Shown here in pieces: positions 12,773 through 28,916 of a stretch of DNA of 37,135 nt. Location: assembly GCA_902624785.1 (NCBI GenBank), contig CACNYU010000011.1, positions 1-37,135 on the forward strand, in the 5' to 3' direction. The DNA comes from an uncultured Prochlorococcus sp. (lineage in GTDB: Bacteria > Cyanobacteriota > Cyanobacteriia > PCC-6307 > Cyanobiaceae). The notes under the pieces are model-generated. The model ran no database searches and had not been told where the DNA came from. It saw only the letters and a program-made list of their open reading frames with translations. Position 1 is the stretch's first letter, and the number at the start of each line of letters is the position of its first letter. The position numbers and the translations under genes are program-made.

Positions 12773-14980
12773 TTATGAATGATTTATTAATTCTAGATCA
12801 ATTTGATATTTTAATATATCTACTTTTATGATTTTTATATCAACTAAATCTCCTACTCGATATGTATTTTTTGATTTTCGGCCTATTAAAAGATTTTGCC
12901 TAGATCTGTATTCATACCAATCATCATTCAATGTGCTTACATGCACTAATCCTTCTATATATAATTCAGGTAATTCAACAAACAAACCATAACTTTGTAC
13001 AGTGATTATAAGTCCCTTAAAATCTTTGCCAATTAATTTTTCTGCTTCTCTTATTTTCTTTAGACTTATAATATTTAAAGCATAAGAATTACTTTTGGCT
13101 TTAAATATATTATATTTTTCTACAATTGTGGAATTAAATAATAAATTAGATGTTTTTAGACTACTTGCATTAAATAACTTTGAATTTACTTTTTCCCAAG
13201 AATCCTTTTTGAAAATATTTATATCTTTAAATCTTTTTGCACTTTTGAACATTAAATAGATATTGTATTGATTTGCAAGGTTTATATAATCTTTACTTGG
13301 TAAAGTCCAAGGAGAATTTGCAAATTGATATTTATTTTCTAGTCCTTGTGATTGATAAGTGAATGCTTTATTAGTTTTTAGATTATTAATTAAATATTTA
13401 TTTAGTATTCTTTTTTTAGATTCATCTTTACAATGACTAAATAGTGATTCCAATGTAATATTACCTTCTTCATCTAGTTCAAAATTATTATCAATTAATT
13501 GTGAATGTCTTATTAATTCATTCACATTTAAATAATCTAAATTGTCTGAAAAGAATGAAATATTTTTTAAATTATAATTTTTAGAATGTTGATACCATAT
13601 AGTATCAGCTTCAAATAGGATAGGAGAAATATATGTTTGTGGATCTAACGTATTCAATGGTTCAAAATAATCAATTGAATACTCACATGGTTTATGAATA
13701 TAGAACTCATTTAATTTTTTTATTTTATTTATTTCTCTAGGAATCTCATATTTTCCTTTCTTTAACTGATTGTTGCGAAATTCTTTGGCTATGTTAGTTA
13801 TTAATTTAATTTCTTCTTCATACGTTTTATTAGGTTCTAGTATTTTGGTTGTTAATTTTGACTTCCTTTTATTTAGAGCATCCAAATAATTTTTCTCTAT
13901 AACTGCCACACATTTCACATTAGTTAGGTGAAATGACCAATCTATTATTTCTTTTTCTTTTGATAAATTAATACATAAGCTAATCGCTTTATTTTTCTCA
14001 CCAATTTTAAACTCAGCATTATTTATTAATCCTTTTTCTAGATAATTATGCCAATTATTTGTTAATGGAATTGATTCATAATTCTCATTAAAATATTCAA
14101 TTATATCTTTAGTATTAAAATTTATCCTTTCCGCAATGGAGTTTACATGTATCCAAAGATTACATGTTTTATCTTTATTTATGTTTACTTGAAAAAGTGG
14201 AAGTAATGGAGAATTATTATTTTTCCAACTTTTAAACATAAATGAATGAGCAGACGTCAAATCTAATCTATTCTCAATTTCTGGTTCTTTTATTTCAAGA
14301 TGTTCTTCTCTTTCATTAATATTTATATTGTTTTTTGATAAAACAAATTCATCATCATTATTATCATCAATATTTAATTTTAATTCTTTTATAACATGAC
14401 CTTTCCCTTCTTCTTGAGCTATGGGAAAGATATCAATTTCAACTTTAACAATATTCTTAATTTCAGGATTATATAAATATTTCTTATCTTTATCAGGAAG
14501 GATAATTCTGGCTAATATTCGGTCATCAATTGGGCATGCATAAACCTTTTTATTTACAATTTCAACTTTTGCTAGCAGTATTTTATTTTCTCTCTCTAAG
14601 ATACAATCAACTACTCCCTCTGGAGATCTTCTCTTGATTCCTTCTTTAATTATTCTTACCAGTACTTTATCTCCATTCCAAGCACAATTTAATAAATTTT
14701 CTTTAACGTAAATATCTTCATTTGAATTATCTCTAACTGCGAAACAATATCCTTTACTACTACATCTAATTTTTGCAGATATATGATTATCAGTTTTAAT
14801 ATTTTCAAATTCATTATTATCATTTTTTCTTATTATTTCTAGTTTCTGTAAAGCTTCTAATGCGATATTTAACCTTTCCTTATCAATTTTTTTTGATATT
14901 TTTAACAATTTACATAGTTTTTTATATTCAACAATTTGATCTTTTGTTATATTATCAATTATGGAGGAAGTGCTTAACAT
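12773..14980 (-). CDS. RNase II/R-family protein lacking catalytic residues
   Basis: A 735-aa protein with RNase R architecture: a cold-shock/OB domain at about 67-112 (SSKGYCFAVRDNSNEDIYVK), an RNB-like region from about 238 to 600, and an S1 domain at about 647-731 (FKGLIITVQSYGLFVELPEL). The RNB signature is not intact. Where the family has D-x-x-x-E-D-x-x-D-D-A, this protein has NNNSPLLPLFQV (about 254-265), with no Asp. Where active enzymes have TSPIRRYPD, it has NSPWTLPSKD at about 552-561, losing the catalytic Arg pair. It is therefore probably not a hydrolytic exoribonuclease, although the fold and both RNA-binding ends remain. It may correspond to the second RNB paralogue of cyanobacteria (Zam/VacB-annotated), but I cannot decide which. 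Confidence 0.82.
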   Translation of the reverse strand: MLSTSSIIDNITKDQIVEYKKLCKLLKISKKIDKERLNIALEALQKLEIIRKNDNNEFENIKTDNHISAKIRCSSKGYCFAVRDNSNEDIYVKENLLNCAWNGDKVLVRIIKEGIKRRSPEGVVDCILERENKILLAKVEIVNKKVYACPIDDRILARIILPDKDKKYLYNPEIKNIVKVEIDIFPIAQEEGKGHVIKELKLNIDDNNDDEFVLSKNNININEREEHLEIKEPEIENRLDLTSAHSFMFKSWKNNNSPLLPLFQVNINKDKTCNLWIHVNSIAERINFNTKDIIEYFNENYESIPLTNNWHNYLEKGLINNAEFKIGEKNKAISLCINLSKEKEIIDWSFHLTNVKCVAVIEKNYLDALNKRKSKLTTKILEPNKTYEEEIKLITNIAKEFRNNQLKKGKYEIPREINKIKKLNEFYIHKPCEYSIDYFEPLNTLDPQTYISPILFEADTIWYQHSKNYNLKNISFFSDNLDYLNVNELIRHSQLIDNNFELDEEGNITLESLFSHCKDESKKRILNKYLINNLKTNKAFTYQSQGLENKYQFANSPWTLPSKDYINLANQYNIYLMFKSAKRFKDINIFKKDSWEKVNSKLFNASSLKTSNLLFNSTIVEKYNIFKAKSNSYALNIISLKKIREAEKLIGKDFKGLIITVQSYGLFVELPELYIEGLVHVSTLNDDWYEYRSRQNLLIGRKSKNTYRVGDLVDIKIIKVDILKYQIDLELINHS

Positions 14981-15059: not shown

Positions 15060-15338
15060 TTATTTACTCAAGTAATCGAATATTAATCTTGAACCTATTA
15101 TTAAAAAAGTTAAAGATGCAATAAGCTTAAGGTAAATTTCAGGTATGAAGTTTGATATTGAACCACCTGCTAAAACACCTACAAGACTTGCAAGAATTAA
15201 AGCCGAGGCTGAACCTAGAAAAACTGCTAATGGTTTCTTTGATGTTCCACTAAGTGTAAGAGTTGCTAATTGTGTCTTATCTCCAAGTTCAGCAATAAAT
15301 ATAGTTACGAATGAGGAAATTAATAAATTTATAATCAT
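15060..15338 (-). CDS. Half-size UPF0016 (GDT1/Mnx-type) transporter, second copy
   Basis: A membrane protein with the UPF0016 signature ELGDKTQLAT near its start. I place the start at ATG 15338, giving 92 aa (MIINLLISSFVTIFIAELGD); an upstream in-frame start at 15380 would overlap the preceding gene by 41 bp and adds residues without family likeness. About three TM helices are visible. Family knowledge: UPF0016 members (yeast Gdt1, human TMEM165, cyanobacterial Mnx) are Ca/Mn cation exchangers with two copies of the ELGD motif in one chain. Here each gene has one copy, so a heterodimer with the neighbour is expected. It lies one base after the first half gene. Confidence 0.85.
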   Translation of the reverse strand: MIINLLISSFVTIFIAELGDKTQLATLTLSGTSKKPLAVFLGSASALILASLVGVLAGGSISNFIPEIYLKLIASLTFLIIGSRLIFDYLSK

Positions 15339-15339
15339 T

Positions 15340-15657
15340 TCAATAATAAATACTAAAGATAGTATAACCAATCCATGCACTTACTAATGTCATTAATATT
15401 CCTGTAAATAAAGCAAACTTTTCTTTTGAGATCTTTGTAGATAACCATTTTCCTATTAAAACTCCTACGATACTGGAACAAAGTAAGGCGAATGAACTTC
15501 CAAGAAATACAATCATAGGTTTACCTGATTCAGCGGATAACATTAATGTCGCTAACTGTGTTTTATCTCCTAGTTCAGCTATAAAAATTGTTGTGAAACT
15601 TGTTAAAAAGATTGATATAAAACCTTTTTCTATAGTCTTATCATCTTCATTCATCAT
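15340..15657 (-). CDS. Half-size UPF0016 (GDT1/Mnx-type) transporter, first copy
   Basis: A 105-aa membrane protein with one UPF0016 motif (IAELGDKTQLATLML, about residues 25-39) and about three TM helices. The N-terminal 11 residues are acidic and polar, absent from the second copy. The two halves share the motif and overall pattern, so they come from a duplication, but outside the motif they differ clearly, which fits separate roles in a heterodimer. Its ATG overlaps the last base of the upstream YkgJ-like stop (TAATG), and the second half gene follows after one base. Cation, possibly Mn, export is inferred from the family. Confidence 0.85.
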   Translation of the reverse strand: MMNEDDKTIEKGFISIFLTSFTTIFIAELGDKTQLATLMLSAESGKPMIVFLGSSFALLCSSIVGVLIGKWLSTKISKEKFALFTGILMTLVSAWIGYTIFSIYY

Positions 15658-27728: not shown

Positions 27729-28916
27729 TTAATTTATAAATTCCAAAAGATTTGAATTGTGATTATGGTTATATTTAATTTTATAAATTTTGTTAGGAAA
27801 TGTATCTATAGATATATACAACTTTATTAATAACTCTAAATTATATGAACTAAAGAAAACTAATGCAATATTTTTTTTATGATTTATCCACCTAATAAAT
27901 ATTATTTTATGTAATATATTATTTGTATTATTAAAATATATTTTAAGATAAAAAAGTTTATTTTCTTTTATTATATTATTATTTTCTTTTTGTTTTATGT
28001 TACTTAACTCTATTTCTTTGTTAACAATTTCCTCATTTAAGATTTCTTTATTATTTATATATAAATATAACTGTCTTTGAACAAGTAGATCAAGATATCT
28101 TCTTAAGGGAGATGTCGTTTGAACATAAGAATCTAATCCAAGAGTTTCATGTTTACCAGCTTTTAATGATATAAAACTTTTGCCAATGAATTGTTTAAGA
28201 ATAATATATTTAATTGGGCTATTAAAGTTTCGCTCCAATATACTTTTGGGATCACAATTTATCTTTTGCGTTCTAAAAGGTGAAGGAATATTATTTTTCC
28301 AAAGATATTCACTGGTAATATTTCCCATCAAAATCATAGCTTCGGATACTAAGTTATGAGCTGGAGTTATTTCAGTTGTTTCAAATGAAATTGTATTATT
28401 ATTATGATGTAAAATTTTTGTATATCTATTATTAAATGTTATCGCACCATTCTTTTTTCTATAATTAAAACTTTTCTTTAATAATTTATTTAATATTATT
28501 AATTCATACTCTTCTTTAGGTTCCAATTCTAAGATTTCATTAGTATCTTCATATGTAAATTCATAGTTTGGTTTAATAAGTGTCTCTAAAATTTTATATT
28601 TTTTAATGGAACCATTTTCATTTAGTTCTATACAAGCACTTAATGTTTCAGATAATTTATTTTTCTTTAAGTTCGATTGCTCAATTATATTTTTTGGGAG
28701 CATTGATATGCATTTATCTACTAGGTACAAACTTGAAGATCTTTTTTTAGCATTAATATCAATCTCTGAATTAAATTCAAATAATTTTGATGGATAGCTT
28801 ACATGTATCCATATATTTCTTACATCATTATTAATTTCTAAGGAAATAGCATCATCTATTTCAATAGGATTTTTAGAGTCAATAATAAAAGTCTTTAAAT
28901 TTGTTAAATCTTTCAA
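27729..28916 (-). CDS. Compact RNase II/R-family exoribonuclease (RNB domain)
   Basis: A 395-aa protein consisting mainly of the RNB catalytic domain. The metal site IDSKNPIEIDDAIS (12-25) keeps D13, D21 and D22, with E19 at the fourth position. The Arg motif TSPLRRYLDLLVQRQ lies at about 265-279, and the intervening NLVSEAMILMGNITSEYL segment is normal. No cold-shock domain precedes it, and the last ~75 residues form at most a degenerate OB fold. It should therefore be hydrolytic, but it lacks the usual RNA-clamping domains (typical RNase II/R is 640-800 aa). It begins 13 bp after the rpsR stop, suggesting transcription together with rpsR and rpmG. Confidence 0.88.
   Translation of the reverse strand: MKDLTNLKTFIIDSKNPIEIDDAISLEINNDVRNIWIHVSYPSKLFEFNSEIDINAKKRSSSLYLVDKCISMLPKNIIEQSNLKKNKLSETLSACIELNENGSIKKYKILETLIKPNYEFTYEDTNEILELEPKEEYELIILNKLLKKSFNYRKKNGAITFNNRYTKILHHNNNTISFETTEITPAHNLVSEAMILMGNITSEYLWKNNIPSPFRTQKINCDPKSILERNFNSPIKYIILKQFIGKSFISLKAGKHETLGLDSYVQTTSPLRRYLDLLVQRQLYLYINNKEILNEEIVNKEIELSNIKQKENNNIIKENKLFYLKIYFNNTNNILHKIIFIRWINHKKNIALVFFSSYNLELLIKLYISIDTFPNKIYKIKYNHNHNSNLLEFIN

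Follow-up and report, generated by a model that had tools for sequence, protein, structure and literature searches.

The window analysed here, a stretch of 37,135 nucleotides, carries on its minus strand an intact reading frame of 735 codons (12773..14980; ATG start, TAA stop) whose product is almost certainly the Prochlorococcus orthologue of Zam, an RNase II/R-family protein with a degenerate active site. The protein has lost the catalytic residues of the family and is maintained under purifying selection that is strongest in its RNA-binding folds. The second RNB protein of cyanobacteria, Zam has been described as a clade whose active site has degenerated (Thomas et al., 2022; PMC9145284). 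The dead active site is thus already published, and the protein of the window is a member of a known family; the first-pass annotation, which rightly reported 735 residues free of stop codons and frameshifts, did not recognise it as Zam itself. The source genome is that of an HNLC-like Prochlorococcus (1.12 Mb, 55.6% complete), and among named genomes it is closest to those of uncultured Prochlorococcus isolates and to HNLC1 and HNLC2. The features discussed below are, by position in the window:

12773..14980, minus strand: zam orthologue, catalytically degenerate RNase II/R-family protein, 735 aa (ORF, Pfam, NCBIfam, alignment, model, fold match)
14792..14980, minus strand: N-terminal helical (RNase R HTH-like) segment, residues 1-63 (model helices 4-10, 19-25 and 31-46; aligned with the RNase R N-terminus)
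14585..14791, minus strand: cold-shock domain 1 (CSD1), residues 64-132, dN/dS ~0.06 (Pfam OB_RNB; selection)
14744..14764, minus strand: CSD1 loop with the redox cysteine pair C73-SSKGY-C79, a Zam hallmark (alignments; PMC9145284)
14369..14584, minus strand: cold-shock domain 2, residues 133-204 (boundaries from model strands; dN/dS)
13046..14278, minus strand: degenerate RNB domain, residues 235-645, dN/dS ~0.20 (Pfam RNB, 56.7 bits; fold match)
14198..14233, minus strand: site of the lost Asp cluster, K250..P261 (alignment)
13280..13306, minus strand: site of the lost TSPIRRYPD motif, T559-LPSKDYI-N567 (alignment)
12776..13045, minus strand: S1 domain, residues 646-735, a very conserved block (Pfam, alignment, selection)
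27729..28916, minus strand: Rnb, the paralogue with an intact active-site motif (IIDSKNPIEIDDA, TSPLRRYLD), ~395 aa (ORF, Pfam, homologue lengths)

A profile search, comparison with Rnb and a tree all placed the protein with the Zam of the class and apart from the Rnb paralogue, and the alignment gave it the degenerate RNB active site of the Zam clade. Two invariant, redox-active cysteines in CSD1, C73 and C79 in the numbering of Synechococcus PCC 7002, were reported for Zam (PMC9145284); in the window protein they stand at exactly 73 and 79. The pair was found in every class-wide sequence tabulated except L152, which has C and G, and the divergent L148. In family f18, to which L148 belongs, Zam has diverged: the CSD1 cysteines are missing from L148, and the L149 copy is divided over two frames. 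Prochlorococcus is not mentioned in the main text of Thomas et al. (2022; PMC9145284), and a literature search for functional data on Prochlorococcus Zam found none; a match to 'RNase R' in a thermal-acclimation paper was rejected, as the phrase there reads 'RNase rne gene'. In many genomes Zam proteins are annotated as exonucleases although the residues that cut RNA are missing.

The active-site columns were read from an alignment of E. coli RNase II/R with a graded series of cyanobacterial homologues. The columns of the metal-binding aspartates D201, D209 and D210 (RNase II numbering) are occupied in the window protein by K250, L260 and P261, and that of D207 aligns with P258, such that the four Asp metal ligands of the RNase II/RNase R exoribonucleases are absent; the catalytic R500 of the TSPIR(R/K)Y motif is likewise replaced, by K563. 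These column assignments were made by sequence alignment through intermediates that anchor the register: some lineages read IDDA, others VENA or IENA, LDAA also occurs, and picocyanobacteria have LLPA or LLPL. TSPIRRYPD corresponds to T559-L-P-S-K-D-Y-I-N567 in the window protein; the Pro and Tyr of the motif are kept, Lys replaces the first Arg and Asp the second. The first-pass annotation was therefore right that both catalytic motifs of a large RNase II/R homologue had gone; for the second motif, however, the sequence that it quoted, NSPWTLPSKD, lies a few residues out of register, the true stretch being TLPSKDYIN. Asp209 is the most critical residue for the activity of RNase II (PMC3293843), and with leucine in its place classical catalysis is very unlikely. 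We consider it highly probable that the window protein lacks RNB-type catalysis. As read from its residues, the protein cannot be a classical 3'-5' exonuclease, the loss being seen directly in the sequence and the lack of activity predicted from it. The loss is common to the full-length picocyanobacterial orthologues aligned (57 sequences) and is therefore not a sequencing accident; a frameshift or misassembly artefact was rejected on the same ground. No acid was found at the D201, D209 or D210 column in any picocyanobacterial orthologue tabulated. A loss specific to the HL/HNLC clade of Prochlorococcus was also rejected, since the site is missing in marine Synechococcus too.

The domain organisation is that of the Zam clade, CSD1-CSD2-RNB-S1, as seen with Pfam and in a predicted structure. 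The cold-shock and S1 domains noted in the first pass were recovered as Pfam OB_RNB, CSD2 and S1 matches, together with a weak RNB match (56.7 bits; cut-off 29.3), and the NCBIfam equivalog model for RNase R scored 160 bits, far below its cut-off of 597.85. The Pfam CSD2 match covers residues 86-132, inside the first barrel. The structure prediction, fed by an alignment of 44 orthologues, was confident (pLDDT 85.7, pTM 0.88), and the model showed the fold of RNase II/R, matching RNase R structures with Z ~32 over ~600 residues and the yeast pseudonuclease Ssd1 with Z 27.7 over 601 residues. Thus, the fold of the window protein is whole although its catalytic residues are absent.

Across cyanobacteria the loss of the Zam active site, as read from aligned sequences, is graded, a point that goes beyond Thomas et al. 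(2022). Three sampled lineages (L119, L120 and L126) have a Zam with D201, D209 and D210 and the TSP-RRYPD arginine motif; the D207 column is the sole loss in L120 and is ambiguous in L119 and L126 owing to insertions. Two acids and the arginine remain in the Zam proteins of L150, L127 and L131, E-E-N stands at the Asp columns of many others, and those of picocyanobacteria have no acid there. Possibly, the Zam of L119, L120 and L126 is still active. The published view that no Zam has the site is right for the complete site, but some members keep most of it. With E. coli RNase R as the root, a tree that included the active-site columns put the site-bearing forms nearest the root and the picocyanobacteria on a long stem. 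A tree of the OB domains only gave too little resolution to show the site-bearing lineages to be basal (p-AU 0.55, one clade of degenerate forms). It had been suggested in the first pass that the same columns be inspected in cyanobacterial Zam/VacB orthologues; these orthologues have no value as active controls, because they are one protein caught at different points of active-site decay. Such a graded loss in living lineages offers a series of intermediates in which the change from enzyme to regulator can be studied.

Conservation of the gene was assessed by selection analysis, synteny and distribution. Over 407 pairs of related genes, median dN/dS was 0.155 for the whole of zam, 0.056 for CSD1, 0.061 for S1 and 0.195 for RNB. 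Purifying selection acts on the gene, above all on its RNA-binding folds, and the selection analysis called for in the first pass gave no sign of neutral decay. With its catalytic residues lost, its fold preserved and an overall dN/dS of ~0.16, the protein fits the earlier description of a maintained pseudo-enzyme. A search of 51 near-complete Prochlorococcus genomes gave a zam match in 49. In a phylum-wide sample the Zam profile matched 141 Cyanobacteriia genomes and, outside the class, only two, both weakly; among the non-matching genomes listed (20, with 128 further non-matching) all lie outside Cyanobacteriia. Zam is near-universal in the class Cyanobacteriia.

Within picocyanobacteria the order of neighbours is kept: two presumably GDT1-type genes, then zam, a presumably DUF2996-like gene, and genes provisionally named acsF (where present) and tldD. 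This order is lost outside picocyanobacteria. The synteny supports orthology within picocyanobacteria but gives no hint of a functional partner that is conserved. Upstream of zam in the window lie two adjacent, overlapping genes (15060-15657, minus strand) that we likewise assume to be of GDT1/TMEM165 type; the pair recurs at nearly every picocyanobacterial locus that has enough flanking sequence.

The Rnb gene of the window adjoins rps18. In the four genera with small genomes that were measured its frame has 398-441 aa, against ~665-735 aa in the majority of other cyanobacteria. When the N-terminal module of a marine Synechococcus Rnb was used as the query, 40 of the 61 family genomes matched; the 21 without a match, for which divergence could also be the explanation, are all small (1.1 to 2.2 Mb). 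It appears, then, that Prochlorococcus Rnb is without the N-terminal module, a feature not covered by Thomas et al. (2022). A split of RNase II/R function between the two Prochlorococcus proteins could be imagined, with Rnb, short of its N-terminal module, as the catalytic core and Zam, its catalysis gone, supplying OB folds that capture RNA in trans to Rnb or RNase E; we regard this as improbable.

On balance, we favour a Zam that is a non-catalytic, RNA-binding OB-fold protein and a redox-tuned partner of RNase E. Zam would be kept for its RNA-binding OB folds, CSD1 and S1, would dock both with RNA and with the RNase E degradosome, thereby tuning RNA turnover, and the C73/C79 pair of CSD1 may serve as a redox switch linked to the photosynthetic state. 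We infer from work on other species that Zam would bind RNA, work with RNase E and be switched by redox state. In PCC 7002, Zam is reported to show redox-dependent mobility and an in vivo function that depends on the cysteines; conservation is concentrated in the OB folds, and in other species cysteine mutants phenocopy the deletion (PMC9145284). That purifying selection is strongest in CSD1 and S1 counts in favour of this reading, as it is there that Zam is thought to act. Purified Zam from another species showed no nuclease activity, aggregation being a caution, and the same protein did not bind RNA (PMC9145284). The Anabaena RNB protein Alr1240 is reported to bind and stimulate RNase E; Thomas et al. 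assign it to Zam (PMC9145284), in conflict with a review in which it figures as an active, RNase II-like enzyme. Of 40 near-complete relatives of the genus, 39 have RNase E; it was not found in the source genome, which at 55.6% completeness is uninformative. That the tuning of RNase E and the degradosome is the core role of Zam is a tentative proposal, to which we give a little under even weight. zam mutants of other cyanobacteria show reduced phycocyanin synthesis. Phycobiliprotein-domain genes are down to a single gene in 39 of 41 genomes of the genus and to none in the other two. Because Zam is retained with only one such gene, phycocyanin synthesis cannot be its conserved core function in Prochlorococcus; the phycocyanin defects of the mutants would then be downstream effects, and the core role would lie elsewhere, probably in RNA metabolism. 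The gene at G000:C3:70766-71224 and those of genus relatives, at most one of the phycobilisome family per genome, fit a remnant phycobiliprotein.

Of the other readings, the one to be taken most seriously is a stand-alone regulator that binds mRNA and acts on translation or mRNA stability in the manner of Ssd1, with RNase E not an essential partner. The resemblance of the whole fold to that of Ssd1 (Z 27.7 over 601 residues) speaks for it, as does conservation in the OB folds, which parallels that of the cold-shock domains in fungal pseudonucleases (PMC8097288). In cyanobacteria, however, the partner proposed is RNase E, and our literature search found no report of mRNA targets of Zam; we consider this reading possible but rather unlikely. 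It is far less probable that Zam is still a nuclease, by means of residual or relocated catalytic residues. Such a view could draw on the Zam of L119, L120 and L126, with D201/D209/D210 and the arginine motif retained, and on the RNase II-like activity that the review reports for Alr1240, identified as Zam by Thomas et al. In the window protein, by contrast, the critical Asp209 is Leu260 and D201, D210 and R500 are gone as well, and the tabulated picocyanobacterial orthologues have no acid in the D201/D209/D210 columns.

The reading that we hold least probable, and to which we give almost no weight, is that zam is a decaying gene under little constraint. The faster evolution of the RNB domain and the long stems on the tree would fit decay, as would the zam copy on an HNLC1 scaffold (L005:6001-8205), which is broken after 229 codons. 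In that copy the tblastn match spans residues 1-733, and the break may stem from a sequencing or assembly error. Against decay, no stop interrupts the frame along the match in nearly all relatives, synteny is kept within picocyanobacteria, and dN/dS, at 0.155 overall and ~0.06 in CSD1 and S1 (407 pairs), is well below 1, by which this reading is refuted for the Zam family.

By published description, the Zam proteins of Synechocystis PCC 6803 (Sll1910) and Synechococcus PCC 7002 (A1543) share with the window copy the RNase R-like architecture, the degenerate RNB site, C73/C79 in CSD1 and the conservation in the OB folds. The window copy differs from them in having no acid at the three scored Asp columns and in coming from a genus with only one remaining phycobiliprotein gene. 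With RNase R and RNase II of E. coli it has in common the whole fold and the domain order, whereas the catalytic Asp cluster and Arg500 are absent from Zam and the CSD1 cysteine pair is absent from those enzymes. Yeast Ssd1, like Zam, is a non-catalytic protein of the RNase II family with conserved cold-shock domains, and the two match over the whole fold. Ssd1 derives from Dis3L2 (PMC8097288) and Zam is cyanobacterial, and we infer that the catalytic losses in the two proteins were separate events.
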